A model generated the notes under the pieces. It had not been told where the DNA came from and did not search any database. It worked only from the letters and a program-made list of their open reading frames with translations. Source: Ectobius pallidus (taxonomy: Eukaryota; Arthropoda; Insecta; Blattodea; Ectobiidae). From it: a stretch of DNA of 64,000 nt. The translations under genes and the position numbers were made by a program. The stretch covers positions 199,602,174 through 199,666,173 of the forward strand of contig CAXKWD010000003.1 of NCBI GenBank assembly GCA_964059195.1, written 5' to 3'. Within the stretch, counting starts at the first letter, position 1. Each line of letters begins with the position of its first letter. Positions 2,765-31,814 of this stretch are shown piece after piece.

Positions 2765-3892
2765 ATGGACCCTATACATGAGTATGAGGATATTAAGATT
2801 GAAATTAAAGAAGAGATTTCTGACATACAACGAAAAACTGAACCTGTGCCTGTTACGTTTGACACAATAAAGACACAGCTCATCAAATGTGAAAACACTG
2901 ACAGGAACGATTATACAGCATGCAGCACCATTCGGAAGTGTGAGCCTATACGTATTTCATTTGACACAATACAAACAAAACTAATCAAATGTGAAAATAC
3001 AGAAAAAAAGGAAGTTGGATTTTCTCACGGAAATAATGATCAGATAATGCAATCACACTCAATTGCCGTATGTAAAAGCACATCACCTGCTAGAAGCAGT
3101 ATACAGCTCAGCCCTACTAGAGTCCAAGAACTCTCATGTGATTTATGTGCCAAAAAATTTTCCAGGAAAGGAGACCTCACAAGACATGTGCATACACACA
3201 GTGGAGAGAAGGCATTCGCATGTGATATATGCGCCAAGAAATTTTCACTAAGGGGTTACCTCGAAAAACACCAGCTTACTCACACTGGAGAGAAGACATT
3301 CGCATGTGATATATGCGCCAAGAAATTTTCACTAAGGGGTTACCTCAAAAAACACCAGCTTACTCACACTGGAGAGAAGACATTCACATGTGATATATGT
3401 GCCAAGAAATTTTCCAGAAACGCTAACCTAAAAATACATCAGGTTACTCATACTGGAGAAAAGCCATTCGCATGTGATATATGTGCAAAGATATTTTCCA
3501 GAATCGGTGACCTAAAAGAACATCAGGTTACTCATACTGGAGAAAAAGCATTCCCATGTGATATATGTGCCAAGAAATTTTCCAGAAACGCGAACCTCAA
3601 AAAACATCACCTTACTCACAGTGGAGAGAAGGCATTCACATGTGGTATGTGCGCCAAGAAATTTTCACTAAGGGGTTCCCTCAAAAAACACCAGCTTTCT
3701 CACACTGGAGAGAAGACATTCACATGTGATATATGTGCCAAGAAATTTTCACAAAGTAGTAACCTCAAAGAACATCTGCTTACTCACACTTTAGAAAAGG
3801 CTTTCACATGTGAAATTTGTGCCAAGAAATTTTCAAGAAAGGAAAACCTCAAAAGACATCTTCTTACTCACAAGAGGATCAATCTTTGCTAG
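2765..3892 (+). CDS. C2H2 zinc-finger protein, nine fingers (locus copy 1)
   Basis: A 375-residue protein. Residues 1-125 form an acidic, finger-free N-terminus with two related TFDTI-KT-LIKCEN-like repeats. Nine tandem C2H2 fingers then follow to the C-terminus, most with the CDICAKKFS core, an HTGEK-type linker and a C-X2-C-X12-H-X3-H layout. Helix positions differ between fingers (RKGDLTR, LRGYLEK, RNANLKI, RIGDLKE, QSSNLKE), as expected for sequence-specific DNA binding in the nucleus. There is no ZAD or BTB domain. The frame is intact from ATG to stop and may be one coding exon. A diverged paralogue with more fingers lies at 57,547 in the same orientation. It is probably a lineage-expanded transcription factor; its targets are unknown. 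Confidence 0.9.
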   Translation: MDPIHEYEDIKIEIKEEISDIQRKTEPVPVTFDTIKTQLIKCENTDRNDYTACSTIRKCEPIRISFDTIQTKLIKCENTEKKEVGFSHGNNDQIMQSHSIAVCKSTSPARSSIQLSPTRVQELSCDLCAKKFSRKGDLTRHVHTHSGEKAFACDICAKKFSLRGYLEKHQLTHTGEKTFACDICAKKFSLRGYLKKHQLTHTGEKTFTCDICAKKFSRNANLKIHQVTHTGEKPFACDICAKIFSRIGDLKEHQVTHTGEKAFPCDICAKKFSRNANLKKHHLTHSGEKAFTCGMCAKKFSLRGSLKKHQLSHTGEKTFTCDICAKKFSQSSNLKEHLLTHTLEKAFTCEICAKKFSRKENLKRHLLTHKRINLC

Positions 3893-6536: not shown

Positions 6537-6583
6537 TAAAAGTCTTGACAACAAAAAAATAATAAAGTAATGTGGTATGAAAC

Positions 6584-9094: not shown

Positions 9095-9110
9095 ACCGTA
9101 ATGCAAAACA

Positions 9111-13736: not shown

Positions 13737-13742
13737 AAGGCA
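13737..13742. other. Left target-site duplication AAGGCA
   Basis: AAGGCA immediately precedes AGTAGTATAGGG; the same hexamer follows the mirror end at 31,809-31,814. Confidence 0.85.
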
Positions 13743-13795
13743 AGTAGTATAGGGCAAGGTATGTAGCGGTTTGAGGGGAAATGGGGTGGGGGTAA

Positions 13796-14055
13796 TGACG
13801 TCATCAGTGGTGGGGGGTGATGACGTCATCACTTCCCCTCCAAGATGGCGGCACTTCCGGTTCCGGAACAAGATGGCGGCACTTCCGGTTCCGGAACAAG
13901 ATGGCGGCACTTCCGGTTCCGGAACAAGATGGCGGTACTTCCTGTTCCGGAACAAGATGGCGGCACTTCCGGTTCCGGAACAAGATGGCGGTACTTCCTG
14001 TTCCGGAACAAGTTGGCGGCACTTCCTGTTCCGGAACAAGATGGCGGCTAGCGCG
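13796..14055. promoter_or_regulatory. Left terminal CRE pair and 7 x 28-bp ETS/YY1-like array
   Basis: Two perfect CRE/ATF palindromes TGACGTCA (13,796-13,803 and 13,821-13,828) are followed from 13,841 by seven 28-bp units and a partial one. On the minus strand each unit contains an ETS-family consensus (CCGGAAGTG, or the variant CAGGAAGT) directly joined to GCCGCCATCTTG, the YY1-type motif. Two types of substitution (G/A after AAGT and CCGG/CAGG) define unit subtypes. This looks like a dense promoter/enhancer array; transcription-factor binding is inferred from consensus only. Overlapping MAALPVPEQDG-type frames are repeat artefacts. Confidence 0.75.
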
Positions 14056-14131
14056 AAATTCAAATTAGAAAATGCAAGAGCTGGCGCCAAATTCAAATTA
14101 ATTTTATATTTATATTTATTTAATAAAATCT

Positions 14132-14207
14132 TGTCATAGAGGTGGACTCGAACCTTTCAAGTTGTCATTACCAAGTACCTGCGTTTAACCGCATGACCAC
14201 GCTGACA
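14132..14207 (-). repeat. tRNA-like segment, left arm
   Basis: On the minus strand it has box-A-like GTGGTCATGCGGTTAAACGC and box-B GGTTCGAGTCC at tRNA spacing, with TGTCA...TGACA terminal pairing. Anticodon and T stems pair poorly, so it is more likely tRNA-derived or a Pol III promoter relic. It differs from the right-arm copy at two or more positions. Confidence 0.4.
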
Positions 14208-14439
14208 ATCGATGATTCAACCCAAACATTGTCTGATATATAATTCAGTGACGTCATGGTTATTTGATATTGTACTTTCATAGTTGATTACTAGATGGAG
14301 GTTGTGTAACATGGTTATTCAATCTTGTACTTTAATAATTGTTTACTAGATGGAGGATTTGTAACATACCGCTAGATGTCGGTTGTGATATAAGATGGCG
14401 GCTAGCGCCAAATTCAAAATTCGAAAATGCAAGAGTGTG

Positions 14440-14915
14440 CTAAGTCGAAATTTAACCAACTCCCCCTTACGAATACAACGACTACTTTTTAAATTCTGAA
14501 TTTTTGTGTATTGTAGGCCAATTTCTTTTTATGGATGCAGCGCCAAATCTGTTAACCAAGTCCCCCTTACGAATACAGCGACTACTTTTAAATTCAGAAT
14601 TTTGTGTAAGGTAGACCGATTTCTTTTATGTATGCAGCACCTAAACCATCATTACGAATACAGCGACTACTTTTTAAATTCAGAATGTTGCGTACGGTAG
14701 ACAGCTTCTTTTTTTATGGATGCAGAGCCAAAACTGTTAAACAAGTCCCCAAAAAACGGTTAACCAACTCCATTACGAATACAAAGGCTACTTTTTAAAT
14801 TCCGTATTTTGTGTATGGTAGTCGAACTTCTTTTATGGATGTAGTGCTAAAACTGATAACCAATTCCCATTAAGAATTCGGAATTTCATGTATGGTAGAC
14901 TATTCTGAATTAATG
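14440..14915. repeat. ~100-bp tandem repeat, left arm
   Basis: CCTTACGAATAC/ CATTACGAATAC followed by a TTTTTAAATTCNGAATTT block recurs near 14,467, 14,568, 14,652 and 14,774, each with a CTTTTATGGATG-type block. It is mirrored in the right arm at 30,640-31,085. No gene. Confidence 0.65.
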
Positions 14916-15430
14916 TTTTAAAACAATGTTTTTAACTAGACACAAAAGACGTAATTTCTGTAAAACTATGAACTGGTCCTATAATATTGTTGCAGACTTA
15001 AATGCGTTACATAAAAATTTTGTTCTAATGGTAAATTGAAACATCATATGATACAATGAGAATAAATCATGCCTATAATTAAAATTATCCCGTTTACAAA
15101 TGATATCATCAGGACACTGTATGGATCAGTTTTCTTGATAACAATCTTACCAAGTTCTGGACTTGAAACACTCATTTACCTTAATGAGTCACAACTAGCG
15201 AAAATAATTTATACAATAAACTTTTTTTCTACCGACCCGATTTATTTCAAAATTAGTACATAAGCGTATTATAGTGTTAGAAAGAAACCTTTAAAATTTC
15301 ATACCTGTAACTATTATATTTCACAGAATACATGATACAAAAATATTACTTAAAGATTTTATCAATCTAAAGTTTTGATTTCGTGTAGAAGTCATCCCAT
15401 GAATCATAAGTGGACTAAACTATTGTATAT
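14916..15430. other. Left-arm non-coding stretch
   Basis: AT-rich; only 60-64-codon frames without support. It mirrors 30,110-30,640 in the right arm. Confidence 0.4.
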
Positions 15431-15561
15431 GAAAAGTCTTTTTCTAACGAAGCGATTTAATTGAAAATTTGAACAATCATCTGTTACAATGTAAGTGCAA
15501 AACCTTTTAAAAATCAAGGTTGTAGCTGTAATATTTCCCTGAATATTTTTTAAAAAAATAA

Positions 15562-17699
15562 CACTAGTTAACAAGGTTTTTGCCACATGGTTGAAACTAT
15601 GTGTATCAGATCAAGTTTTATGTGTTATTTACGAATATGAACATAAAAATGTTCCATCACCCTCAAATTTTTAGGAAATCACTAAAATATATCTAAAAAT
15701 ATGAAAAAGTAGTAGTAATAATTATTACAACCACTTCTTTTTATAATTATAACTAGTATACAAAAATTATTATAATTATTAACCAATTGTGGAGCTTTAT
15801 TATCTTTCTTAAAGCCAGTTTGCACAACAATTTGTCCATTCTTACATGCCTGAAGAGGCATAGGGATGTGCGGTACCTTTCGAGGTAGGGATTAGTGAAG
15901 TGCTTGGCGGATAGGAAATGGCTGAGTGTATGGGGTGAGATAGGGTGTTAACATGAAATGTTCAGGTTTTTTTGTTTAGTTTGAGTTTGGCTGTGCCTCT
16001 GAAAAGTGTTGTAAGTGAGTTTTTCTGCCTGTAGTTTAATTTTCACTACAATGAAGAAATTACGCTGTGCATGTGTTAATTCGCCAAATACTTTCTGTTA
16101 CATGTGTAAACAGTTTACTATTAAAAATCAACATCGATCTTTAACAGAAACATTAAAAGAGGCTTACTACAGTTATTTTGGATGTCGTGTTGGTGATGAA
16201 GACAAAGTGTGGGCCCCGAACGTGTGCTGTATAACATGTTACTCAAATCTAATTAAGTGGGAAAATGGTGACAAAACCCGTGCTATGCCTTTCGCGGTCC
16301 CAGTGATCTGGCATGAACCAACTAGCAAGCACAAGATTGTTATTTTTGCTTAACAAGAATTGGAGGACATTCTAAAAGGACAAAATCTAATATTGAGTAC
16401 CCCAATGTTCCATCTGTTATAAGACCTGTTCCACGTGGGCCTGAACTCCCAATCCCTAGTCCACCTACACAGTTAGAAAAGTCCTCTCCAGGAGAAGAAC
16501 AAGCAGATGAGTTACCAAAACCATCCACTTCCTCTGATCCAAACTATAGCCCAGAACATAAAAAGAAACCCCTCCTGATTAATCAATCCAGACTGAACGA
16601 CTTAGGTAGAGATATGTACGAGTATCTCACGAAGTAGCAGGCTGAAGTGCTTGGATCGCGACTTCAAGAATGGAATCTACTTTCCCCCAGTACTAGAATT
16701 TCTTCTTTCCAGAAGAGACATGAACAATTTTCTGGTTATTATGTAATGGAAAATGCCCTCTGTGCATGTATAAATATAGACGGTTTAATGGATGAGCTTG
16801 GATTTCAACATGTCCCTGAAGGATGGAGATAATTTGATTCCTTGAAAGCAAGTCTCAAAGCAGTATTGTTACACAGCCTGGAAGGCCTGTTCTGAGGTAG
16901 TGAATGGGTTTCTGGGAAATAATAAAGCAGAAAATTGCCGACAATTGGTTCAAGAACTTCTGGAGAGTTACAAACAACTAGGATGCAGAATGTCTCTGAA
17001 AATTCATTTTCTCCTTTTGCACCTGGAATTTTTCCCTGAGAATTTCGGTGCTGTCAGTGATGAGCAAGGGGAAAAATTTCACCACGACATACAGTAAATG
17101 GAGCAGAGATATCAAGGTAGATGGAATCCTCACATGATGGGTGACTATTGCTGGTTTTTAGGTAGGGAGACTGACACGCACTACAAGAGGAAGAATTAAC
17201 TGTAAGTCTTAAAATTAAAAGTAGCTGTCACATTTATAATCCCTATAGGCCTACTGCATGTTTAAGTTACTAAGTAGTACTACAAAGGGTTTTTGACTAT
17301 TAATTCTTAGGATTTCTTAATTACAAGTCACAATTTCAAATTGTTTACTTTATAGCAAAAATTACATCATTTTATTACATTTTACTGAGGATGAAAGTCA
17401 ATTTGTCAATAGTAGCATCAATTTATTCCTTTTATATTACCTCATATGTAAAAGTAAGGCATTTTATAACATAATTCTATAAATAAATTAATTATACTTG
17501 TGACATTTTTAGAATTATGTTTAAATTAAACAAAATTTTCTGAATTTTTTTTCTAGAATCGAACTCGGTTCTGTCACACGAAAACGTTACGTGTTACGGA
17601 CTTTTTAATGTCATTTTCGTGTTCAGGCGGTCTGTTTTATATAAAACGACCTGGTTTTGTCCATGTGGCAGACAAAAAGTTGAAATTTGCTGACTAGTG
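15562..17699 (+). mobile_element. CACTA (EnSpm)-type transposon inserted in left arm
   Basis: Begins CACTAGTTAACAAGG and ends in ...GCTGACTAGTG, inverted termini starting CACTAGT. A shared TTTTTG(T)C(T)GCCACATGG block lies further in at each end. It is flanked by TAA (15,559-15,561 and 17,700-17,702). The right arm has the empty site with a single TAA (AAAAAAATAAGTTATAT in complement, near 29,965), so both boundaries and the 3-bp duplication are directly proven. CACTA termini with 3-bp duplications define the CACTA/EnSpm superfamily. Confidence 0.85.
16051..17199 (+). pseudogene. Decayed CACTA-associated transposase-like gene
   Basis: The ATG at 16,051 opens a Cys-rich N-terminus (CACVN...CYMCKQF, later VCCITCYSNL), a treble-clef/zinc-like layout. 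The frame is lost near 16,345, carries TAG at 16,635-16,637, and has an internal deletion around 16,870-16,895 that joins the mid region to the C-terminal part (VNGFLGNNKAENCRQLV... to the HHDIQ, WNPHMMGDYCWFLGRE region), ending near 17,199. I recognise this as a protein family dispersed in many copies in arthropod genomes. Its position inside CACTA termini suggests that it is the CACTA transposase or an accessory. The copy is non-functional. Confidence 0.7.
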
Positions 17700-18110
17700 T
17701 AAGTTATATATTAACGCGAAGGAATTTGTACTAATTTGCTATGTATGACTCACAACTAGGATGATATATTTTACAGCAAAAAACTTTTTTTCTAACGAAG
17801 CGATTTAATTGAAAATTTGTACAATCATCTGTTACACGGTAAGTGCAAAACCTTTTAAAAATCAAGGTTGTAGCTGCTATACTTCACTGAATATTTTTTT
17901 AAATAAGTTATATATTAACGCGAAGGAATTTGTACTAATTTGCTGTGTATGACTCACAACTAGGATGATATAATTTACAGCAAAAACTTTTTTCTAACGA
18001 AGCGATTTAATTGAAAATTTGTACAATCATCTGTTACACTGTAAGTGCAAAACCTTTTAAAAATCAAGGTTGTAGCTGTAATATTTCCCTGAATATTTTT
18101 TAAAAATATT

Positions 18111-19232
18111 GTTAATTACAAGAATTCTTATGAAAACAGTTATCAATGTATGAACAGCAGAATGATCTTACGATCTGGCAATGTACACCCTTTACATTTG
18201 ATTTTTAGATAGGACTTTCTTTTTTTAGAGGTAAAATAAAAACAGCATTTAAATGTACCTTATTTATTTTCACAAGAAATATTATTATAGTACAGCAAAG
18301 TGGTACATACAAATCAATAATAGATGGGAGGAATTCCTTATTACAGATAAAATCAACCGTTAAAATTTCTTAGTCACCCCAAGCCGACGCGGATCTTATA
18401 CACGGAACTGAATGAAAATACATCATGTACAGATAAAGATCAACCGTTACATCCTGAATAGTTCCGGGTCACCCCTGCCGACACGGAAGTGACTGAAAAT
18501 ACACATACATACAAACATCCTGCATGCTAATTGTAGATCATCAATATGACACGTTCCTCCAGTATAGTCAAATTTTCTCCTAAACAATATTACAGAGTCA
18601 TCAAAATATGTTTATCTCTACACAACCCCAGGCTATGTGAATGTCAGTAGTGAAAGTGATAATAATAATAATAAAAAAGTTACAGAATTACTTATACCAT
18701 TTGCGAAAGCTGTTTATGTTTTCCCACTGCATAGAAATTGCAAGATAAATAAATAAATACTTACATAACTTTTTCTTTTCTCCTTCCAGATGAACAGTGT
18801 TAGTATTACTATCAACTAATTGAAATGACTGTGAAAGGATTAGGAATACGGTTAAGGTGAATTTTCATATCAGAACGTCACAACTTTATTCTGTATCATA
18901 AGATTGTCACGTTCCCATGAAATAATGTGTATAAACAAAGGGCTTCACTGTAGTAGAACTGTATGATTTATTTCATAGGTAACGATGTCATATAATGATA
19001 GATTTTTCCCAACTTGTACGAACACCCTCTATGTTTATATAATTAAACACTTCACTTTGCATGAGTACAAATTTACTCGTGATGTCATTTATAATAGTAG
19101 TGGAATCATAAAGAGGTAAGTAATCTCCTTATTACGTAAAATAATGCGAGAACTATCGTAATGTATCACACATTCTTTCAAGTCCTTACATCTCTGTAAT
19201 TGAAATAGTCTTCTCTAAACAGTAACGTTGTT
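18111..19232. other. Left-arm non-coding region beyond the unknown gene
   Basis: AT-rich, without usable frames; mirrors 28,428-29,555. It may hold 3' UTR of the neighbouring gene. Nothing else is recognised. Confidence 0.4.
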
Positions 19233-19740
19233 TTATGTAACTTGTTTAACTTCAGGTTTGTTTAAAAACACGTAATGAATATTGTCTATGATCCATGACT
19301 TTAAACTTAAAACAATTTGTTTTGCACATTTTGCTTCAGGAAAAGTATGAAATTTACAGACAGTAATACATTTAGGTAGAATATTTAAATTTGGACAATT
19401 GAAATCAAATAGATCGTAGACCTCAACAGACGGAATAATGTTTTGTAGAAATTGTTTCTTCTGACAACCTTTCACAAATACATGATCACAATTGTTGAAA
19501 ATGTTTCTCACAATATTTTCCATATGAACATAATCTACAAACCCAAGATCGTATTGTAATCCATGATGAAAATGTTCTAAGTAATGTTTTGTCATCTCGT
19601 TTACAACACTGTCTTCAGGACTGTTGAATAATATATGTACACTGTTTTCACCTTTCAAATCACAAGAAAAAAATTCTTTTACAAAAAATACCGCTGATGC
19701 TGCGTCGACATAACCCTGTACATCAACAACGCGACCATTC
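19233..19740 (-). CDS. Unknown-function gene, terminal coding exon, left copy (intact)
   Basis: The frame is open from a probable splice acceptor (TTTTGATCCAG on the minus strand, AG at 19,741-19,742) to the stop at 19,233. An in-frame TGA just upstream shows that the start must lie in another exon, which I could not place. About 168 residues: an N-terminal VVDVQGYVDA / FFVKEFF block, a central HHGLQYDLGFVDYVHMENI block, an HVFVKG-QKKQFLQNI block, then a Cys/His-containing tail (CPNLNIL...CITVCKFH...CAKQIVLSL). The block order resembles a family I have seen repeatedly in arthropod genomes without known function; an RNase-H-like nuclease fold is possible but unproven. Compared with the right copy, this one keeps GAA at 19,674-19,676. 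Confidence 0.6.
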
Positions 19741-19881
19741 CTGGATCAAAAGAAAATAATATATTACTATCAAAATTCAGACGTTTACGCAAATATAAAA
19801 TAAATAATGATGTGTTTCTTTGTCATTAAGATCTGTTCTTTTCTTCCTTTAAAAATAGCGTTGTTGAACACTGTTTTTTTT

Positions 19882-20205
19882 TCATGAACCGTTAACCAGA
19901 CTTAAATTATATGCATTAGATCCGTCGAAATGTCCTTTATACACTAGCCCTAATTTGCATATGCCTGTGTTTATAGAATCAAAATCTTTCGCCTCAAACT
20001 GTTCAGAATACTTCTTTGGTAGAAAAACAGCCAGAAGTTCCTCCTTGTTTGACGTTTGTAATTCCAACAACACAGAGTCCCCATACTTAGTGTGTTTTAA
20101 TTCAGCTGATAGAACATTATATGTTTGCCCTATGACTAGTTGCGAAATGGAAACGCACCTTGCTCCGTAAGTGGTCTTGTTGAATTTTTCGATTATTGAA
20201 ACCAT
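19882..20205 (-). CDS. Small protein, 107 aa, VFLP family (left copy)
   Basis: The ATG directly follows a strong 3' splice site (CTTGCTTTTCAG), so translation starts in exon 2 after a non-coding leader exon. It has a central pattern G-X2-Y-X-V...T-X-YG...L...VFLP(K/R)(F/Y), shared with the 141-aa neighbour, so the two are paralogues. The mixed beta pattern could be an OB-like fold, which would suit a single-strand nucleic-acid-binding replication protein, but that is inference. It is identical in amino-acid sequence to the right-arm copy at 27,450-27,773. Confidence 0.65.
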   Translation of the reverse strand: MVSIIEKFNKTTYGARCVSISQLVIGQTYNVLSAELKHTKYGDSVLLELQTSNKEELLAVFLPKKYSEQFEAKDFDSINTGICKLGLVYKGHFDGSNAYNLSLVNGS

Positions 20206-20536
20206 CTGAAAAGCAAGAAAAGTTTTTTAGTATATAAATTATGTTAACATTAAACTGTAGCACGTGTTTATGTAAAAATGAACAATCGAAGGACCTACAA
20301 ATAATTAACAAAACTAGTAAAAAAAAAATAGAATCTATTAGAAATAGGAAAACAAACAAGAAGTTAATTATATTTAGCAGAAAAAAACACTATGAATAAT
20401 AATAATAATAATAATTTTAACAGTCTAGAAAGTGTGCGTGATGTAATTGTTTATTTCTTCAGAAAACGAAGTTAATAGAAATAGGAAAACGAAAACGTGA
20501 AGTTAATTATATTTATTTTATAATCAAACGTGGCCT

Positions 20537-20715
20537 CACTTACCTCTATAGTTTTGTAGGAGAAAAGACAATGATAGAAGAACAGATGTAGATGCTGACG
20601 TCAACTATGTAGTCTTCACTATTCACACAGCTATGAAACAATGATTCAAGACGGAACTGTCCGGCAGTTTATATAGATTGGAATGAGTAACGGTTTCGTC
20701 AACCCGGAACTTTGT
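20537..20715 (-). promoter_or_regulatory. TATA promoter and non-coding leader exon, left arm, functional module
   Basis: Minus strand: TATATAA at 20,669-20,675, a CRE-like TGACGTCA about 70 bp downstream, and a leader exon ending ATAGAG|GTAAGTG at 20,544. The intron then runs to the acceptor just before the 107-aa ORF at 20,205. No ATG is present in the leader. Mirrors 26,930-27,110. Confidence 0.7.
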
Positions 20716-20729
20716 TCGAAAATAGAATT

Positions 20730-21600
20730 ATATGCAGGATGTAGTTCAAAAACTGTTACGACCTGCTCTTATACTTTAGTCGCATTTAGAATTATATGAC
20801 TCAACCGGATCTTATAAGAGTACATCCTTGTTTACAGACCTAGATACAATGACCTTTATGCGGATATCAGATAAAGGGTTTTTCCTTAACTTGTTACGAC
20901 CTGTTCCTATAAGGAAATCCTATTTAGAATTATATGACTCAACACGTTCTTACGCTAGTACGTCCTTGTTCGAAAATAGATAGACACATAGTTAATTAGA
21001 AACCGGAACCGTATTTCTTAGAACTTTCACAAGTTTCGTATTCAAAAATAGAATTAGGTGGGGGAACTGGATTTCATACACGCTGTTTACTGACAGCAAT
21101 TACGTTATAGTTTCAAGCTTATTCAGACATGATGCGGATATCAGATAACGGGTTTTTCTTTAACTTGTTACGACCTGCTCCTATAAGGAAAAACAGAGCT
21201 TGTGATAAAAACGTATAACATTATTTAAATGTAGAAATGATTACTAACATGTGCCAAATTAATTTGAAAATGTCATACATGTGCACTTCATTTGCTATGA
21301 AAGCTAAAATATTTATGCAACTCACGGTTGAAAACTTACAATGCGTGCCTTTATAACAGTTACAAACTCGAAATTTAAAAGGTTTTGCACTTACAACGTA
21401 ACAGGTGATTGTTCAAAGAAAAGAGTTTTTTAGTATATAAATTATGTTAACATTAAACTGTAGCAAGTGTTTATGTAAAAATGAACAATCGAAGGACCTA
21501 CAAATAATTAACAAAACTAGTAAAAAAAATAGAATCTATTAGAAATAGGAAAACAAACAAGAAGTTAATTATATTTTTTAAACAAACAAACAAACATGAC
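20730..21600. other. Left-arm intermodule region
   Basis: Holds short direct repeats of TTAACTTGTTACGACCTG and TCAGATAACGGGTTTTTC-type blocks (20,880 and 21,145) and a lone 205-bp-repeat core. No gene. Mirrors 26,050-26,925. Confidence 0.5.
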
Positions 21601-21604
21601 GTCA

Positions 21605-21785
21605 CTTACATCTATAGTTTGTAGGAGAAAAGACAATGATAGAAGAACAGATGTAGATGCTGACGTCAACTATGTAGTCTTCACTATTCACACAGCTATG
21701 AAACAATGATTCAAGACGGAACTGTCCGACAGTTTATATAGATTGGAATGAGTAACGGTTTCGTCAACCCGGAACTTCGTTCGAA
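21605..21785 (-). promoter_or_regulatory. Duplicate TATA promoter/leader module, left arm
   Basis: Second copy of the module (~1.06 kb away) with the same TATA, CRE and donor. It is followed by intron-like sequence that decays before any acceptor or ORF. Its start overlaps the end of the 141-aa gene. Confidence 0.65.
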
Positions 21786-22189
21786 CCAGGTGAATTCGGC
21801 TCCTTAGCGTAGTACATCAATGAAAGTTTCTCCTCGTTCATCTGTTGAAGCTGATCCTCACTCAGCTTTCCAAACCTTCCTGGTAGAAAAACGCTGCATC
21901 CAATCATTAAGTCTATAACGATTCTCCTCCCATACCTTGTATACACAGATCGAGCTTCCTTTACCGGATAAGCAAGTCCAATTTGTAGCTCACTCAACGA
22001 CTTGTTACATCTCACATCGGGGACGTACACAGTTGAATAACGCTTTAGAGTGGATACTATAGACGTCTTCTTATTCTTGGTTTCTTGTGTATTTGGTAAG
22101 TCCTTCGTTGTAATATCTAATATATCAGCAACAGTAGCAGCTGTAGTAGATTTAGGTGCACTTTTACGATCACGCTTCAATGTTGACAT
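21764..22189 (-). CDS. Small protein, 141 aa, VFLP family (left copy)
   Basis: A basic, Ser/Thr-rich N-terminus (residues 1-45, including a Lys-rich stretch) precedes a globular half with G-X2-Y-X-V (about residues 71-76), T-X-YG (about 84-88) and VFLPGRF (about 99-105), the pattern also seen in the 107-aa gene. The ATG lies 70 bp downstream of the BIR gene, with a TATA-like GTATATAAT between them. The last codons are encoded by sequence belonging to the duplicated promoter module, so the C-terminus is probably an acquired tail. It is identical to the right copy. Function unknown; nucleic-acid binding is conceivable from the basic tail. Confidence 0.65.
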   Translation of the reverse strand: MSTLKRDRKSAPKSTTAATVADILDITTKDLPNTQETKNKKTSIVSTLKRYSTVYVPDVRCNKSLSELQIGLAYPVKEARSVYTRYGRRIVIDLMIGCSVFLPGRFGKLSEDQLQQMNEEKLSLMYYAKEPNSPGSNEVPG

Positions 22190-22259
22190 GTTGTAAGCTT
22201 GAAGATCACTAAACTATGTATACATGTAACTAAGGTATTATATACTGTTCACCTTTCCC

Positions 22260-22604
22260 TCACTCTTGTTGTACATGATCATGCTCGTCAGGAACATTCG
22301 TCTTTTCACCTGTGCCACAATCATCTCGTCCCATGTCGATGAGGACCTCACCTTTAGTTTTACTTATAAACCTGCAGAAGGGGGCCCATCTTCTATGTTC
22401 ATTTGCTGGATCGTCCGTTTTTTCCCAGTGTCCTATCTGCGTATGACAGTACGCGCACTCGACTACGTCGTTGTATCCAATATAGTAGAATCCGGCTTCG
22501 CTCATTTTGTCCAAGTCTATAAATGTCAATGGCCAATCTTTAAAAGTTTTACGTCGATCAGATTGATTATGCATATCAAACATCGATCCATAATACAGAG
22601 CCAT
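22260..22604 (-). CDS. Single-BIR, IAP-like protein (left copy)
   Basis: A 114-residue protein with one BIR domain (about residues 17-81): R-X-TFKDWP start, MSEAGFYYIG, then zinc ligands Cys50, Cys53, His70 and Cys77 in the canonical C-X2-C-X16-H-X6-C spacing, with DDP-X2-EH before the histidine. BIR proteins block caspases or bind apoptotic or mitotic partners. This one lacks a RING, so ubiquitin-ligase activity is not expected. The tail is acidic. I chose the ATG at 22,604; an in-frame GTG seven codons upstream is less likely. Identical to the right copy, so both remain open. An anti-apoptotic role during element or virus replication is inference. Confidence 0.85.
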   Translation of the reverse strand: MALYYGSMFDMHNQSDRRKTFKDWPLTFIDLDKMSEAGFYYIGYNDVVECAYCHTQIGHWEKTDDPANEHRRWAPFCRFISKTKGEVLIDMGRDDCGTGEKTNVPDEHDHVQQE

Positions 22605-22741
22605 CCTGCGCGTTATGCTTCTCACTTACGACTAACCTTAAAACAAGTTTGAACCTATCCTGCACGTGCTGTGTAAGACCTTGAAACGAGTTTGAACAAG
22701 TCTATAGTGATGACGCTCACTCAGCTTAGAAGTACAACCAA

Positions 22742-23012
22742 TCATAAAAAATATTCCTTTAATTCATCCAACGTCTGAAACAAACCAAAAATATAAATGT
22801 AAATAAAGTCTATTAATAGAATTGTATTGAAATATTGAAGAAATGTTACATACCATCTTGTTAGAAGATTTGTAGTCAGAGCAATCTTGTCCGTTTGCAC
22901 ATATATGATAGGACATCGTTCTATCGACATCTGATGGATCTAAACATAATGTATGACGAACGCCGACACATGTTTCAATATGATTCTCGCCAGAGTGTGA
23001 ACCCTTCTCCAT
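22742..23012 (-). CDS. Probable two-exon small gene spanning loop and arm
   Basis: Exon 1 runs from ATG 23,012 to 22,854 (53 codons), with Cys/His-containing segments (ETCVGVRHTLC, YHICANGQDC), ending at ATG|GTATGT. Exon 2 runs 22,774-22,742 after TTGTTTCAG, adding TLDELKEYFL and a stop. Frame is kept across the intron, giving 63 residues. Exon 1 lies in the unpaired loop, while exon 2 lies in the arm. The arm's mirror copy (24,036-24,078) has one T fewer in the run before the stop, so it reads through a few codons more and has no exon 1. The intron is predicted from consensus sites only. I do not recognise the protein. Confidence 0.4.
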
Positions 23013-23019
23013 CCGTCCA

Positions 23020-23800
23020 CATTTCAGATGTAGAAAACATTAGTGCTTTCACAACACAAATTGTTATTAAAAACTCTATAATATTATTTAAATGTAGAAA
23101 AATTTTACTAACATGTCTACCTTGCACACTTCAGTCGTTATGAAACTAGCGTATTTATACAAGTCATGGCTGAACACAGACAAAGCGTACCTTTTCACAC
23201 TGTATAAAAGACAACTTGTGCTTGAAAAGGTACAACTTTATTCAGATGTAGAAAATATTAGTGCTTTCTCAACACAACGTGTGATTAAAAACTTACAATA
23301 TTATTAAATGTACCAAATTAATTTTGAAATTGTCTACCTTGTACACTTCCATCGTTATGAAAACGAACTTATTTATACAAGTCATGCATGAAAACCGACA
23401 AAGCGTACCTTTTCATACTGTATAAAACACAACTGATGATTGAAAATGTACAACTTTATTCAGATGTAGAAAATATTAGTGCTTTCACAGCACAACTTGT
23501 GATTAAAAAACTCTAGCGTGTCTTTTCGTAGTGTATAAAACAAAACTTGTGATTGAAAACGTACAATTGTATTCAGATGTAAATAATAATGTTATTACAA
23601 CCCAACATGTCGTAGATTAATTGAAAATGGCATACATGTACACTTCACTTGCTATGAAAACTAAAATAATTATACAACTCACGGTTGAAAACTTACAATG
23701 CGTGGCTTTCATTTGTATAAAACACAACTTGTTATTAAAATCGCCATGAAAACTATATTATTTATACAAGAACTGTATAAAACACAACTTGTGATTGAAA
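23020..23800. repeat. 218-bp tandem repeats in the loop
   Basis: TTCAGATGTAGAAAATATTA recurs at 23,025, 23,243 and 23,461 (exact 218-bp steps), with a further partial unit near 23,573. Each carries a TGTATAAAA TATA-like motif, an ACAACTTGTGATTGAAAA block and a CATACATGTACACTTCA-type block. Short frames here have no support. Could be promoters or a replication-related array. Confidence 0.75.
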
Positions 23801-23806
23801 TTACGC

Positions 23807-23973
23807 GCGACGAGTTTTTCTTCAATTTCCTCCGAGATAACCTAACCTAACATACCGTAGCCTAACCTAACCTAACCTTTCCTAACCTAACCTAACCTAA
23901 CCAAAGCGGTGATATAATAAATCGTACACTATAGGTTGGGTTATGCGACGATTTTTTTTCTTTCCTCCGAGAT
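23807..23973. repeat. 30-bp direct repeats bracketing the telomeric block
   Basis: GCGACGA...TTTCCTCCGAGAT occurs at 23,807-23,838 and 23,945-23,973, on either side of the CCTAA block. The second copy ends exactly where the right arm starts. Confidence 0.7.
23839..23902 (-). repeat. Interstitial insect-type telomeric repeats (CCTAA/TTAGG)
   Basis: Nine or more CCTAA units in three clusters separated by short interruptions (CATACCGTAG, CCTTT). TTAGG on the minus strand is the canonical insect telomere repeat. A degenerate GGTTGGGTTA lies at 23,933-23,943 in opposite sense. Confidence 0.85.
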
Positions 23974-24077
23974 TTCAATACAATTCTATTAATAGACTTT
24001 ATTTACATTTATATTTTTCGTTTGTTTCAGACGTTGGATGAATTAAAGGAATATTTTTATGATTGGTTGTACTTCTA

Positions 24078-24929
<852 letters not shown>

Positions 24930-25041
24930 ACGTCATCACTATAGACTTGTTCAAACTCGTTTCAAGGTCTTACACAGCACGTGCAGGATAGGTTCAAACT
25001 TGTTTTAAGGTTAGTCGTAAGTGAGAAGCATAACGCGCAGG

Positions 25042-25386
25042 ATGGCTCTGTATTATGGATCGATGTTTGATATGCATAATCAATCTGATCGACGTAAAAC
25101 TTTTAAAGATTGGCCATTGACATTTATAGACTTGGACAAAATGAGCGAAGCCGGATTCTACTATATTGGATACAACGACGTAGTCGAGTGCGCGTACTGT
25201 CATACGCAGATAGGACACTGGGAAAAAACGGACGATCCAGCAAATGAACATAGAAGATGGGCCCCCTTCTGCAGGTTTATAAGTAAAACTAAAGGTGAGG
25301 TCCTCATCGACATGGGACGAGATGATTGTGGCACAGGTGAAAAGACGAATGTTCCTGACGAGCATGATCATGTACAACAAGAGTGA
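25042..25386 (+). CDS. Single-BIR, IAP-like protein (right copy)
   Basis: Mirror of 22,260-22,604 with an identical 114-residue product: zinc ligands Cys50, Cys53, His70 and Cys77, and AGFYY and DDP-X2-EH motifs. It is the innermost and first gene of the outward-running set in this arm. No TATA is evident immediately upstream, where a CRE-like ACGTCATCA lies near 24,930; the upstream context also differs from the left copy beyond that point because of the 850-bp block. Both copies are open, which for a diploid host locus means twice the dose from one insertion if expressed. Confidence 0.85.
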   Translation: MALYYGSMFDMHNQSDRRKTFKDWPLTFIDLDKMSEAGFYYIGYNDVVECAYCHTQIGHWEKTDDPANEHRRWAPFCRFISKTKGEVLIDMGRDDCGTGEKTNVPDEHDHVQQE

Positions 25387-25456
25387 GGGAAAGGTGAACA
25401 GTATATAATACCGTAGTTACATGTATACATAGTTTAGTGATCTTCAAGCTTACAAC

Positions 25457-25882
25457 ATGTCAACATTGAAGCGTGATCGTAAAAGTGCACCTAAATCTAC
25501 TACAGCTGCTACTGTTGCTGATATATTAGATATTACAACGAAGGACTTACCAAATACACAAGAAACCAAGAATAAGAAGACGTCTATAGTATCCACTCTA
25601 AAGCGTTATTCAACTGTGTACGTCCCCGATGTGAGATGTAACAAGTCGTTGAGTGAGCTACAAATTGGACTTGCTTATCCGGTAAAGGAAGCTCGATCTG
25701 TGTATACAAGGTATGGGAGGAGAATCGTTATAGACTTAATGATTGGATGCAGCGTTTTTCTACCAGGAAGGTTTGGAAAGCTGAGTGAGGATCAGCTTCA
25801 ACAGATGAACGAGGAGAAACTTTCATTGATGTACTACGCTAAGGAGCCGAATTCACCTGGTTCGAACGAAGTTCCGGGTTGA
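25457..25882 (+). CDS. Small protein, 141 aa, VFLP family (right copy)
   Basis: Product identical to the left copy (21,764-22,189). A TATA-like GTATATAAT lies about 55 bp upstream of the ATG in the short gap after the BIR stop, so it probably has its own promoter. The stop TGA lies within GGGTTGACGAAA, the first bases of the duplicated promoter module; the matching sequence at 26,940 is non-coding. The module duplication therefore set the present C-terminus. Confidence 0.65.
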   Translation: MSTLKRDRKSAPKSTTAATVADILDITTKDLPNTQETKNKKTSIVSTLKRYSTVYVPDVRCNKSLSELQIGLAYPVKEARSVYTRYGRRIVIDLMIGCSVFLPGRFGKLSEDQLQQMNEEKLSLMYYAKEPNSPGSNEVPG

Positions 25883-26042
25883 CGAAAACCGTTACTCATT
25901 CCAATCTATATAAACTGCCGGACAGTTCCGTCTTGAATCATTGTTTCATAGCTGTGTGAATAGTGAAGACTACATAGTTGACGTCAGCATCCACATCTGT
26001 TCTTCTATCATTGTTTTCTCCTACAAACTATAGAGGTAAGTG
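25866..26042 (+). promoter_or_regulatory. Duplicate TATA promoter/leader module, right arm
   Basis: TATATAA at 25,907-25,913, CRE TGACGTCA at 25,979-25,986, donor ATAGAG|GTAAG after 26,035, and a second TGACGTCA at 26,041-26,048. No ORF with an acceptor follows before the next module, so any transcript would have to splice to a distant acceptor, for instance the 107-aa gene at 27,450. Confidence 0.65.
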
Positions 26043-26049
26043 ACGTCAT

Positions 26050-26925
26050 GTTTGTTTGTTTGTTTAAAAAATATAATTAACTTCTTGTTTGTTTTCCTAT
26101 TTCTAATAGATTCTATTTTTTTTTACTAGTTTTGTTAATTATTTGTAGGTCCTTCGATTGTTCATTTTTACATAAACACTTGCTACAGTTTAATGTTAAC
26201 ATAATTTATATACTAAAAAAACTCTTTTCTTTGAACAATCACCTGTTACGTTGTAAGTGCAAAACCTTTTAAATTTCGAGTTTGTAACTGTTATAAAGGC
26301 ACGCATTGTAAGTTTTCAACCGTGAGTTGCATAAATATTTTAGCTTTCATAGCAAATGAAGTGCACATGTATGACATTTTCAAATTAATTTGGCACATGT
26401 TAGTAATCATTTCTACATTTAAATAATGTTATACGTTTTTATCACAAGCTCTGTTTTTCCTTATAGGAGCAGGTCGTAACAAGTTAAAGAAAAACCCGTT
26501 ATCTGATATCCGCATCATGTCTGAATAAGCTTGAAACTATAACGTAATTGCTGTCAGTAAACAGCGTGTATGAAATCCAGTTCCCCCACCTAATTCTATT
26601 TTTGAATACGAAACTTGTGAAAGTTCTAAGAAATACGGTTCCGGTTTCTAATTAACTATGTGTCTATCTATTTTCGAACAAGGACGTACTAGCGTAAGAA
26701 CGTGTTGAGTCATATAATTCTAAATAGGATTTCCTTATAGGAACAGGTCGTAACAAGTTAAGGAAAAACCCTTTATCTGATATCCGCATAAAGGTCATTG
26801 TATCTAGGTCTGTAAACAAGGATGTACTCTTATAAGATCCGGTTGAGTCATATAATTCTAAATGCGACTAAAGTATAAGAGCAGGTCGTAACAGTTTTTG
26901 AACTACATCCTGCATATAATTCTAT
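26050..26925. other. Right-arm intermodule region
   Basis: Contains intron-like T-rich sequence, one 205-bp-repeat core (26,245) and paired GGTCGTAACAAGTTAA blocks (26,475 and 26,745). No gene. Confidence 0.5.
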
Positions 26926-26929
26926 TTTC

Positions 26930-27110
26930 GAACAAAGTTCCGGGTTGACGAAACCGTTACTCATTCCAATCTATATAAACTGCCGGACAGTTCCGTCTTG
27001 AATCATTGTTTCATAGCTGTGTGAATAGTGAAGACTACATAGTTGACGTCAGCATCTACATCTGTTCTTCTATCATTGTCTTTTCTCCTACAAAACTATA
27101 GAGGTAAGTG
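26930..27110 (+). promoter_or_regulatory. TATA promoter and leader exon of the 107-aa gene, right arm
   Basis: TATATAA at 26,972-26,978, CRE-like TGACGTCA about 70 bp downstream, leader exon ending at 27,103 (ATAGAG|GTAAGTG), intron 27,104-27,449 ending CTTGCTTTTCAG. The leader has no ATG. The intron contains an (ATT)n microsatellite at 27,232-27,257. Confidence 0.7.
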
Positions 27111-27449
27111 AGGCCACGTTTGATTATAAAATAAATATAATTAACTTCACGTTTTCGTTTTCCTATTTCTATTAACTTCGTTTTCTGAAGAAATAAACAA
27201 TTACATCACGCACACTTTCTAGACTGTTAAAATTATTATTATTATTATTATTATTATTCATAGTGTTTTTTTCTGCTAAATATAATTAACTTCTTGTTTG
27301 TTTTCCTATTTCTAATAGATTCTATTTTTTTTTTACTAGTTTTGTTAATTATTTGTAGGTCCTTCGATTGTTCATTTTTACATAAACACGTGCTACAGTT
27401 TAATGTTAACATAATTTATATACTAAAAAACTCTTTTCTTGCTTTTCAG

Positions 27450-27773
27450 ATGGTTTCAATAATCGAAAAATTCAACAAGACCACTTACGGAGCAAGGTGC
27501 GTTTCCATTTCGCAACTAGTCATAGGGCAAACATATAATGTTCTATCAGCTGAATTAAAACACACTAAGTATGGGGACTCTGTGTTGTTGGAATTACAAA
27601 CGTCAAACAAGGAGGAACTTCTGGCTGTTTTTCTACCAAAGAAGTATTCTGAACAGTTTGAGGCGAAAGATTTTGATTCTATAAACACAGGTATATGCAA
27701 ATTAGGGCTAGTGTATAAAGGACATTTCGACGGATCTAATGCATATAATTTAAGTCTGGTTAACGGTTCATGA
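27450..27773 (+). CDS. Small protein, 107 aa, VFLP family (right copy)
   Basis: ATG abuts the 3' splice site. Product identical to the left copy at 19,882-20,205. A longer frame from 27,294 is open only because the intron happens to lack stops; the acceptor shows that those codons are intronic. It shares the G-X2-Y-X-V, T-X-YG and VFLP pattern with the 141-aa gene. Followed 147 bp later by the acceptor of the next exon, so alternative splicing between the two is possible. Confidence 0.65.
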   Translation: MVSIIEKFNKTTYGARCVSISQLVIGQTYNVLSAELKHTKYGDSVLLELQTSNKEELLAVFLPKKYSEQFEAKDFDSINTGICKLGLVYKGHFDGSNAYNLSLVNGS

Positions 27774-27919
27774 AAAAAAAAAAAAACAGTGTTCAACAAC
27801 GCTATTTTTAAAGGAAGAAAAGAACAGATCTTAATGACAAAGAAACACATCATTATTTATTTTATATTTGCGTAAACGTCTGAATTTTGATAGTAATATA
27901 TTATTTTCTTTTGATCCAG

Positions 27920-28427
27920 GAATGGTCGCGTTGTTGATGTACAGGGTTATGTCGACGCAGCATCAGCGGTATTTTTTGTAAAATAATTTTTTTCTTGTGA
28001 TTTGAAAGGTGAAAACAGTGTACATATATTATTCAACAGTCCTGAAGACAGTGTTGTAAACGAGATGACAAAACATTACTTAGAACATTTTCATCATGGA
28101 TTACAATACGATCTTGGGTTTGTAGATTATGTTCATATGGAAAATATTGTGAGAAACATTTTCAACAATTGTGATCATGTATTTGTGAAAGGTTGTCAGA
28201 AGAAACAATTTCTACAAAACATTATTCCGTCTGTTGAGGTCTACGATCTATTTGATTTCAATTGTCCAAATTTAAATATTCTACCTAAATGTATTACTGT
28301 CTGTAAATTTCATACTTTTCCTGAAGCAAAATGTGCAAAACAAATTGTTTTAAGTTTAAAGTCATGGATCATAGACAATATTCATTACGTGTTTTTAAAC
28401 AAACCTGAAGTTAAACAAGTTACATAA
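27920..28427 (+). pseudogene. Unknown-function gene, right copy, interrupted by a stop
   Basis: Same exon as 19,233-19,740 but with TAA at 27,984-27,986, where the left arm has GAA. The stop falls after the FFVK block, removing most of the protein. The remainder (from 28,002) is identical to the left copy, so the change is recent. Confidence 0.7.
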
Positions 28428-29554
28428 AACAACGTTACTGTTTAGAGAAGACTATTTCAATTACAGAGATGTAAGGACTTGAAAGAATGTGTGATACATT
28501 ACGATAGTTCTCGCATTATTTTACGTAATAAGGAGATTACTTACCTCTTTATGATTCCACTACTATTATAAATGACATCACGAGTAAATTTGTACTCATG
28601 CAAAGTGAAGTGTTTAATTATATAAACATAGAGGGTGTTCGTACAAGTTGGGAAAAATCTATCATTATATGACATCGTTACCTATGAAATAAATCATACA
28701 GTTCTACTACAGTGAAGCCCTTTGTTTATACACATTATTTCATGGGAACGTGACAATCTTATGATACAGAATAAAGTTGTGACGTTCTGATATGAAAATT
28801 CACCTTAACCGTATTCCTAATCCTTTCACAGTCATTTCAATTAGTTGATAGTAATACTAACACTGTTCATCTGGAAGGAGAAAAGAAAAAGTTATGTAAG
28901 TATTTATTTATTTATCTTGCAATTTCTATGCAGTGGGAAAACATAAACAGCTTTCGCAAATGGTATAAGTAATTCTGTAACTTTTTTATTATTATTATTA
29001 TCACTTTCACTACTGACATTCACATAGCCTGGGGTTGTGTAGAGATAAACATATTTTGATGACCTCTGTAATATTGTTTAGGAGAAAATTTGACTATACT
29101 GGAGGAACGTGTCATATTGATGATCTACAATTAGCATGCAGGATGTTTGTATGTATGTGTATTTTCAGTCACTTCCGTGTCGGCAGGGGTGACCCGGAAC
29201 TATTCAGGATGTAACGGTTGATCTTTATCTGTACATGATGTATTTTCATTCAGTTCCGTGTATAAGATCCGCGTCGGCTTGGGGTGACTAAGAAATTTTA
29301 ACGGTTGATTTTATCTGTAATAAGGAATTCCTCCCATCTATTATTGATTTGTATGTACCACTTTGCTGTACTATAATAATATTTCTTGTGAAAATAAATA
29401 AGGTACATTTAAATGCTGTTTTTATTTTACCTCTAAAAAAAGAAAGTCCTATCTAAAAATCAAATGTAAAGGGTGTACATTGCCAGATCGTAAGATCATT
29501 CTGCTGTTCATACATTGATAACTGTTTTCATAAGAATTCTTGTAATTAACAATA
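28428..29554. other. Right-arm non-coding region
   Basis: Mirror of 18,111-19,232; no coding frame or other recognised feature. Confidence 0.4.
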
Positions 29555-30085
29555 TTTTTAAAAAATATTCAGGGAAATATTACAGCTACAACCTTGATTT
29601 TTAAAAGGTTTTGCACTTACAGTGTAACAGATGATTGTACAAATTTTCAATTAAATCGCTTCGTTAGAAAAAAAGTTTTTGCTGTAAATTATATCATCCT
29701 AGTTGTGAGTCATACACAGCAAATTAGTACAAATTCCTTCGCGTTAATATATAACTTATTTAAAAAAAATATTCAGTGAAGTATAGCAGCTACAACCTTG
29801 ATTTTTAAAAGGTTTTGCACTTACCGTGTAACAGATGATTGTACAAATTTTCAATTAAATCGCTTCGTTAGAAAAAAAGTTTTTTGCTGTAAAATATATC
29901 ATCCTAGTTGTGAGTCATACATAGCAAATTAGTACAAATTCCTTCGCGTTAATATATAACTTATTTTTTTTAAAAATATTCAGGGAAATATTACAGCTAC
30001 AACCTTGATTTTTAAAAGGTTTTGCACTTACATTGTAACAGATGATTGTTCAAATTTTCAATTAAATCGCTTCGTTAGAAAAAGA
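29555..30085. repeat. ~205-bp tandem repeat, three units, right arm
   Basis: ACCTTGATTTTTAAAAGGTT at 29,591, 29,795 and 30,002 (steps of 204 and 207), each with TTTGCACTTAC and AATCGCTTCGTTAGAAAA blocks. This is the unbroken version of the left-arm array. Confidence 0.8.
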
Positions 30086-30639
30086 CTTTTCATATACAAT
30101 AGTTTAGTCCACTTATGATTCATGGGATGACTTCTACACGAAATCAAAACTTTAGATTGATAAAATCTTTAAGTAATATTTTTGTATCATGAATTCTGTG
30201 AAATATAATAGTTACAGGTATGAAATTTTAAAGGTTTCTTTCTAACACTATAATACGCTTATGTACTAATTTTGAAATAAATCGGGTCGGTAGAAAAAAA
30301 GTTTATTGTATAAATTATTTTCGCTAGTTGTGACTCATTAAGGTAAATGAGTGTTTCAAGTCCAGAACTTGGTAAGATTGTTATCAAGAAAACTGATCCA
30401 TACAGTGTCCTGATGATATCATTTGTAAACGGGATAATTTTAATTATAGGCATGATTTATTCTCATTGTATCATATGATGTTTCAATTTACCATTAGAAC
30501 AAAATTTTTATGTAACGCATTTAAGTCTGCAACAATATTATAGGACCAGTTCATAGTTTTACAGAAATTACGTCTTTTGTGTCTAGTTAAAAACATTGTT
30601 TTAAAACATTAATTCAGAATAGTCTACCATACATGAAAT

Positions 30640-31085
30640 TCCGAATTCTTAATGGGAATTGGTTATCAGTTTTAGCACTACATCCATAAAAGAAGTTCGA
30701 CTACCATACACAAAATACGGAATTTAAAAAGTAGCCTTTGTATTCGTAATGGAGTTGGTTAACCGTTTTTTGGGGACTTGTTTAACAGTTTTGGCTCTGC
30801 ATCCATAAAAAAAGAAGCTGTCTACCGTACGCAACATTCTGAATTTAAAAAGTAGTCGCTGTATTCGTAATGATGGTTTAGGTGCTGCATACATAAAAGA
30901 AATCGGTCTACCTTACACAAAATTCTGAATTTAAAAGTAGTCGCTGTATTCGTAAGGGGGACTTGGTTAACAGATTTGGCGCTGCATCCATAAAAAGAAA
31001 TTGGCCTACAATACACAAAAATTCAGAATTTAAAAAGTAGTCGTTGTATTCGTAAGGGGGAGTTGGTTAAATTTCGACTTAGCAC
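30640..31085. repeat. ~100-bp tandem repeat, right arm
   Basis: Mirror of 14,440-14,915; about five diverged units around GTAGTCGCTGTATTCGTAA. Confidence 0.65.
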
Positions 31086-31315
31086 ACTCTTGCATTTTCG
31101 AATTTTGAATTTGGCGCTAGCCGCCATCTTATATCACAACCGACATCTAGCGGTATGTTACAAATCCTCCATCTAGTAAACAATTATTAAAGTACAAGAT
31201 TGAATAACCATGTTACACAACCTCCATCTAGTAATCAACTATGAAAGTACAATATCAAATAACCATGACGTCACTGAATTATATATCAGACAATGTTTGG
31301 GGTTGAATCATCGAT

Positions 31316-31391
31316 TGTCAGCGTGGTCATGCGGTTAAACGCATGTACTTGGTAATGACAAGTTGAAAGGTTCGAGTCCACCTCTATGACA
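31316..31391 (+). repeat. tRNA-like segment, right arm
   Basis: TGTCA...TGACA ends, box-A-like GTGGTCATGCGGTTAAACGC and box B GGTTCGAGTCC. Poor anticodon-stem pairing. tRNA-derived rather than a functional tRNA. Confidence 0.4.
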
Positions 31392-31474
31392 AGATTTTAT
31401 TAAATAAATATAAATATAAAATTAATTTGAATTTGGCGCCAGCTCTTGCATTTTCTAATTTGAATTTCGCGCTA

Positions 31475-31755
31475 GCCGCCATCTTGTTCCGGAACAGGAA
31501 GTGCCGCCAACTTGTTCCGGAACAGGAAGTGCCGCCAACTTGTTCCGGAACAGGAAGTACCGCCATCTTGTTCCGGAACAGGAAGTACCGCCATCTTGTT
31601 CCGGAACCGGAAGTGCCGCCATCTTGTTCCGGAACCGGAAGTGCCGCCATCTTGTTCCGGAACCGGAAGTGCCGCCATCTTGTTCCGGAACCGGAAGTGC
31701 CGCCATCTTGGAGGGGAAGTGATGACGTCATCACCCCCCACCACTGATGACGTCA
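31475..31755. promoter_or_regulatory. Right terminal 8 x 28-bp ETS/YY1-like array and CRE pair
   Basis: Eight units from about 31,483 to 31,710, then TGACGTCA at 31,723-31,730 and 31,748-31,755. On the plus strand four inner-side units read CAGGAAGT and four terminal-side units CCGGAAGTG, each joined to CCGCCATCTTG or CCGCCAACTTG. The subtype order differs from the left arm, so the arrays have changed independently. Confidence 0.75.
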
Positions 31756-31808
31756 TTACCCCCACCCCATTTCCCCTCAAACCGCTACATACCTTGCCCT
31801 ATACTACT

Positions 31809-31814
31809 AAGGCA
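31809..31814. other. Right target-site duplication AAGGCA
   Basis: Matches 13,737-13,742 exactly. Confidence 0.85.

Follow-up and report, generated by a model that had tools for sequence, protein, structure and literature searches.

A palindromic element with Maverick/Polinton-type ends

The DNA analysed here (the window) is a stretch of 64,000 nucleotides from the 2.12-Gb genome of the blattodean insect Ectobius pallidus (C3:199602174-199666173), and at positions 13743-31808 it holds a Maverick/Polinton-derived element of ~18 kb that is almost wholly a palindrome. The termini of the element are of the form AGT...ACT (AGTAGTATAGGGCAAGG...CCTTGCCCTATACTACT; in a longer reading, AGTAGTATAGGG...CCCTATACTACT), and the hexanucleotide AAGGCA abuts it directly on both sides, forming an exact 6-bp target-site duplication (chance probability of the match, 1/4096). 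An original prediction, made from the letters of the window only, had described these termini and this duplication, together with inverted arms of ~6.95 kb (net) around a loop of ~1.14 kb. Termini and duplication are confirmed in the sequence, and alignment of the arms with BLAST and MAFFT gives the same architecture, with a loop of 1138 bp:

13737..13742, no strand: target-site duplication AAGGCA, left copy (sequence)
13743..22833, + strand: left arm, 6.95 kb net of a nested insert (BLAST, MAFFT)
15562..17699, + strand: nested DNA transposon in the left arm, 2138 bp, termini CACTAGT...ACTAGTG, TAA duplication (exact empty site in the right arm)
22834..23971, no strand: loop, 1138 bp, containing tandem repeats of 218 bp (23023-23515) and, at 23838-23902, a (CCTAA)n tract
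23972..31808, - strand: right arm, an inverted copy of the left arm (BLAST, MAFFT)
24080..24930, no strand: segment of the right arm only, 0.85 kb against 10 bp in the left arm (arm alignment)
31809..31814, no strand: target-site duplication AAGGCA, right copy (sequence)

The net arm length of ~6.95 kb is counted without a 2141-bp difference in the left arm (the 2138-bp insert plus its 3-bp TAA duplication) and without the ~0.85 kb that is extra in the right arm (24080-24930). In the raw alignment, the left and right arms show 19 mismatches and small indels, four of the 19 mismatches bordering the 0.85-kb difference, and blocks with 100% complementarity reach lengths of up to 1341, 1286, and 1037 bp. 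Since the site of the nested transposon is exactly empty in the right arm, the palindrome is older than this insertion, and 2.1 kb of the length that the original prediction gave to the element belong to a later transposon. Pieces of open reading frames (ORFs) of this transposon lie at 16015-17094, and a Pfam scan of 15562-17699 gave nothing over the cut-off.

Near-identical arms are the usual sign of an assembly or library artefact created by fold-back reads. We consider this explanation to be next to impossible here, because the duplication is exact, the arms differ, the nested insert is present in one arm only, and other copies (below) lie at many other sites with other exact duplications.

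Gene content of the arms and the loop

A six-frame Pfam search of the right arm and loop (22717-31808) and of the left-arm insert found no PolB, integrase, ATPase, protease, or capsid, in agreement with the earlier impression that no Maverick core gene is visible; the left arm outside the insert mirrors the right arm and was covered by a Pfam scan of one of its ORFs, not in six frames. One correction applies: the arms are not empty. Each of them has one BIR gene, a pair of paralogous small genes (A and B), and a gene that we call VDVQG, all of which are oriented outward:

19233..19745, - strand: VDVQG gene, left copy, 170-amino-acid (aa) open frame
19882..20205, - strand: small gene B, 107 aa, left copy
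21764..22189, - strand: small gene A, 141 aa, left copy
22260..22625, - strand: BIR (inhibitor-of-apoptosis) gene, left copy, outward, protein 100% identical to the right copy
24087..24170, - strand: tryptophan 2,3-dioxygenase exon-like fragment with an AG acceptor before it (PF03301, E 3.6e-8)
25021..25386, + strand: BIR gene, right copy, outward (PF00653, E 1.7e-21)
25457..25882, + strand: right copy of small gene A, 141 aa, paralogous to gene B (E 6e-7)
27450..27773, + strand: small gene B, 107 aa from ATG, right copy
27915..28427, + strand: VDVQG gene, right copy, with a stop in its frame where the arms differ (27984)

For VDVQG, the nonsynonymous and synonymous divergences (dN 0.025 and dS 0.065, 14 differences) lend weak support to the possibility that the gene may be under purifying selection. 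It has a single relative in the protein collection (P0001, 85%), and a protein search with small gene B returned none. No relatives of gene A, VDVQG, or BIR were found in scans of IMG/VR, nor any of gene A in phage records, and searches of NCBIfam and PHROGs gave nothing useful. Fold predictions are too poor for use, both for small gene B (predicted local distance difference test [pLDDT] score, 43) and for VDVQG (pLDDT, 36), and an OB fold, which had been an early guess for the VDVQG protein, is therefore not claimed.

The dioxygenase-like fragment lies within the segment that is specific to the right arm, and its PF03301 match covers 28 residues at 33.6 bits, below the cut-off of 34.9. Parts of the 24080-24930 segment recur at the centres of two further copies of the element, C410 and C4a. 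Given that parts of this segment are also found there, a piece of a host gene seems to have been captured by the element and spread with it. As a separate observation, a short spliced gene may cross the edge between arm and loop (22745-23039, - strand; donor GTATGT, acceptor TTTGTTTCAG, read by eye).

Further copies and full-length partners in the host genome

We searched the host genome with the terminal 101 bp of the element and scored 40 of 370 first-look candidates; the very first genomic relative had come by luck, from a 200-kb sample chosen by place. The scored matches show 90-100% identity over the aligned part and sort by place and strand into 15 two-ended elements and 10 single ends. 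Among the 15, one is the window element itself, and another (C25) shares its flanks with C410. Exact 6-bp duplications, all of them different, are present at 9 of 11 further loci. The window element thus belongs to a family rather than being a single oddity. In six copies (C4b, C7a, C4c, C3b, C4d, and C2c), the terminal 31 nt form a variant of the copy's own, yet this variant is the same at both ends, and in C2b the two 31-nt ends show one difference (all by eye).

The original prediction had named an element with the same ends plus PolB and integrase as the autonomous partner to be looked for, and C2a (C2:124088712-124104509; 15.8 kb, non-palindromic) answers to this description. Both of its ends are identical to those of the window element (101/101 bp), so that the window element shares its ends with a full-length element of the same genome, as a non-autonomous derivative should. 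Its pieces, searched separately, match PolB (PF03175; 64.5 and 61.0 bits, in two frames), the rve integrase (PF00665; 46.3 bits, in a 325-aa frame), the A32-type ATPase Pox_A32 (PF04665; 33.8 bits), and the adenain-type protease Peptidase_C5 (PF00770; 25.9 bits), all with scores above the curated cut-offs. In a second copy, C4b, PolB occupies an open frame of 1394 aa, and a protease match and an ATPase-like ORF are also present. Two ORFs that gave no database match, one of 325 aa in C2a and one of 155 aa in C3b, are presumably capsid-like. Across the host genome, 75 PolB loci were scored from 1705 candidates, and an rve search, in which 150 of 6858 candidates were scored, was swamped by apparent long terminal repeat elements.

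Palindromy was probed at 3.0-4.4 kb from each end in 10 of the other 13 two-ended copies. Seven of these (C410, C4a, C7a, C4c, C2b, C4d, and C1a) are inverted there, with 98.6-100% identity between the sides, and three (C2a, C4b, and C3b) are non-palindromic; PolB matches also fall within the three remaining two-ended elements, which are 17-49 kb long. The window-type arm is found in four of the seven palindromic copies (C410, C4a, C4c, and C4d). At the probed position, C7a and C1a contain repeats related to the 218-bp loop repeats, and C2b shows no similarity; these differing arm contents mean that there is more than one type of palindrome. In length, the eight palindromes range from 13.9 to 15.9 kb and the three non-palindromic copies from 15.5 to 16.3 kb.

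Comparison of the window arm with the two ends of C2a indicates where the arms come from. At the right end of C2a, the similarity stops after ~739 bp, with none from there to ~3.0 kb, and this extent defines a terminal inverted repeat of ~740 bp. The left end is 96.8% identical to the arm over ~1.2-2.2 kb, and the piece at least 3.0 kb inward has no match. Since the left end matches the arm beyond the ~740-bp repeat and the right end does not, both arms extend one and the same parental end, a conclusion that rests on the outer 2.2 kb and on the genomic context of VDVQG, which lies beside a Maverick integrase at the loci described below. The element had originally been proposed to be a non-autonomous, inverted-dimer Maverick derivative. 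Given the shared ends, the full-length partner, and the further palindromes, its designation as a non-autonomous palindromic derivative stands, whereas a dimer of a whole element does not agree with the arms, which rather mirror one end.

Paired VDVQG genes and a possible alternative lineage

In a search of the host genome with the VDVQG protein, 150 of 1677 first-look candidates were scored. Of these, 126 form 63 neighbouring pairs within 20 kb (chance expectation, 0.2), with a median spacing of 7954 bp, and all 63 pairs are in the outward (-/+) orientation; no +/- pair and no same-strand pair occurs among the 150 scored copies. In 55 of the 63 pairs, the two members do not differ in their rounded identity to the query, and the mean identity difference is 0.25 within pairs, versus 2.97 for random pairs.

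We probed 10 of the 24 unpaired copies at 3.5-4.5 kb inward. Two of them (C4:144.49 and C5:100.02) have a C2a-type ORF (94-95%) and a C2a-type integrase (98.6-99%) there, seven have sequence like the palindrome arm or loop, and one has no match. The arm- or loop-like sequence is no proof of palindromy, because loop repeats are also present in a decayed relative (C6:39998046-40009724), which is flanked by TATATG on both sides and has a single VDVQG beside remnants of Maverick ORFs. Judging from their sequence surroundings, the unpaired copies in a Maverick context (C4:144.49, C5:100.02, and C6) are likely the parental form. In the decayed element (at 40.00 Mb of C6), the VDVQG module adjoins an ATPase remnant, a position that PolB occupies in C2a.

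The equivalent BIR search (150 of 694 candidates scored) gave 3 outward pairs, 12 inward pairs, and 120 unpaired matches, many of the matches being at ~90% identity. The 12 inward-facing pairs suggest further palindrome types. Among the scored matches, a single BIR is present at 13 VDVQG-paired loci and two at another 3.

Such counts could also be read as the mark of an independent mobile lineage whose genome is palindromic by nature (that is, with very long inverted terminal repeats) and which has its own replication module and Maverick-like ends. The prevalence of pairs among the scored VDVQG copies (126/150), which are never near the 75 scored PolB loci, is in keeping with this idea, as is the lack of a stop in 142 of the 150 listed BIR matches, though most of these are unpaired. 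The presence of VDVQG in a Maverick context at C4:144.49, C5:100.02, and the decayed C6 relative argues against it, as does the lack of any replicase or integrase match in the right arm and loop, and we regard an independent lineage as quite unlikely.

Origin and maintenance of the palindromes

The reading that we favour, with a probability of roughly 0.7, is that the element is a snap-back-derived, non-autonomous palindromic Maverick/Polinton derivative that is spread by helper proteins. The parent was likely a full-length Maverick in which the VDVQG module adjoined one end. As this parent underwent linear, protein-primed replication, the growing strand would have folded back or switched template and copied its own template to the starting end. 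The product of this snap-back would have two identical ends, each with that terminus and origin, and would have lost PolB, integrase, and virion genes. Palindromes of this kind would then be mobilised in trans: full-length relatives that share their ends would supply the polymerase that copies them and the rve integrase that inserts them with 6-bp duplications. The self-complementarity of each displaced strand could allow one arm to template the other in every cycle, which would keep the arms alike. Fold-back in linear, end-primed replication would give a mirror-duplicated single end and palindrome edges that coincide with the insertion ends. The terminal variants matching at both ends would fit copying between the ends through panhandles. 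The similar lengths of the elements (14-16 kb) would fit a packaging limit, or they could reflect shared descent.

The similarity of arms within copies was compared over 929 gap-free columns from five copies (window, C410, C4a, C4d, and C4c), from which a tree was built. Left and right arms differ at one column in the window element and in C410, at none in C4a and C4d, and at four in C4c, and between copies the arms differ at 1-14; in four of the five copies, the two arms either are identical or group together as sisters. Since C4a, C4c, and C4d are mutually close, the window element and C410 carry most of this signal.

The same likeness would be expected if the host had made the inverted duplication after insertion, with replication or break repair extending the terminal repeat, gene conversion keeping the arms alike, and later mobilisation of the result. 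Centres that vary, as seen in the VDVQG-paired loci with one or two BIR genes, also speak for this scenario. A host-made duplication would often be expected to spill into the flanks, however, and the palindromes with both ends intact, which include at least two further arm types, end in the same termini and are flanked by an exact 6-bp duplication. This origin therefore appears unlikely to us.

Several observations weigh against the snap-back reading or narrow it. The arms of C4c, with their 4 differences in 929 columns, are not sisters, some copies differ from one another by 1-2 columns only, and host gene conversion could be an alternative keeper of arm likeness. The duplication of C2c matches at 5 of 6 positions, C1a has no recognisable left terminus, and the PolB of C2a is split over its two frames. 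The three two-ended elements of 17-49 kb lie beyond the 14-16 kb band, within which the lengths are not independent, because copies may share founders. C7a, C1a, and C2b carry other arm contents, from putative other parents. VDVQG and BIR (150 scored each) are always more than 15 kb away from the 75 scored PolB loci, and thus PolB and arm genes were never seen together in one element; among the 40 terminal matches, PolB lies inward within 14 kb in 8 (from 6 elements) and VDVQG within 8 kb in 13, and none has both. Nor was a BIR gene seen in a VDVQG-type full-length parent. Replication intermediates, virions, and transposition were not observed; the shared ends, the duplications, and the genes of the partner are seen in the sequence, and fold-back, mobilisation in trans, and packaging are inferred from it.

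Going one step beyond the snap-back origin, we tentatively entertain the possibility, which we hold to be somewhat less than even, that the palindromes might constitute a self-complementary satellite-virus lineage of the germ line. Its members would be of near-helper length, replicated and packaged by co-resident Mavericks, with arms re-templated in each cycle and with BIR and VDVQG as their own cargo, and the arms would evolve in concert while copies accumulate.

Relation to known systems

The window element shares with Maverick/Polinton (adintovirus-like) elements the AG...CT type of ends with terminal inverted repeats and the 6-bp duplication, and its partner C2a has matches to PolB, rve integrase, ATPase, and protease. 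It differs from them in having no PolB, rve, ATPase, protease, or capsid match in the scanned parts and in an inverted repeat that comprises the whole arm, against ~740 bp. Among the papers listed in our literature searches, we found no report of a palindromic or non-autonomous Maverick/Polinton.

Adeno-associated virus (AAV) replicates by a rolling hairpin. AAV snapback subgenomes have one end of the linear genome in a double-stranded snapback configuration (PMC8235507), and the palindromes described here resemble such defective-interfering genomes in that one end of a linear genome is mirrored. Unlike AAV snapbacks, the present palindromes are integrated into chromosomes with target-site duplications. 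Ends and an arm module that are Maverick-derived would set them apart from foldback transposons too. Foldback transposons, such as Tetris of Drosophila virilis, reportedly also have long inverted arms.

If the favoured reading is true, the palindromes would be a chromosomal record of linear Maverick replication products, registering snap-back errors, end-to-end copying of terminal repeats, and possibly a packaging length. Whether Mavericks resemble adenoviruses in their replication and packaging would then become testable from genome sequence, and the family would provide an instance, within a germ line, of satellite or defective-interfering genomes belonging to a DNA virus-like element.

Subterminal repeats and flanking sequence

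Minisatellites detected with Tandem Repeats Finder (TRF) lie close to both ends of the window element:

13841..14048, + strand: subterminal 28-bp minisatellite CAAGATGGCGGCACTTCCGGTTCCGGAA, left, 7.4 copies (TRF)
31475..31710, - strand: subterminal 28-bp minisatellite, right, 8.4 copies (TRF)

Two TGACGTCA sites, along with repeated copies of the motifs AAGATGGCGGC and ACTTCCGG, lie in the subterminal zone (~13795-14048) and its mirror in the right arm, and they resemble CREB, YY1, and ETS sites. The (CCTAA)n tract of the loop (23838-23902) represents the TTAGG-type telomere repeat of many insects. Outside the element, the window contains a 2.5-kb tandem duplication with 99.8% identity (6580-11619), and zinc-finger-like repeat arrays within a diverged duplication flank the element on both sides (3135-3872 and 57929-59278).

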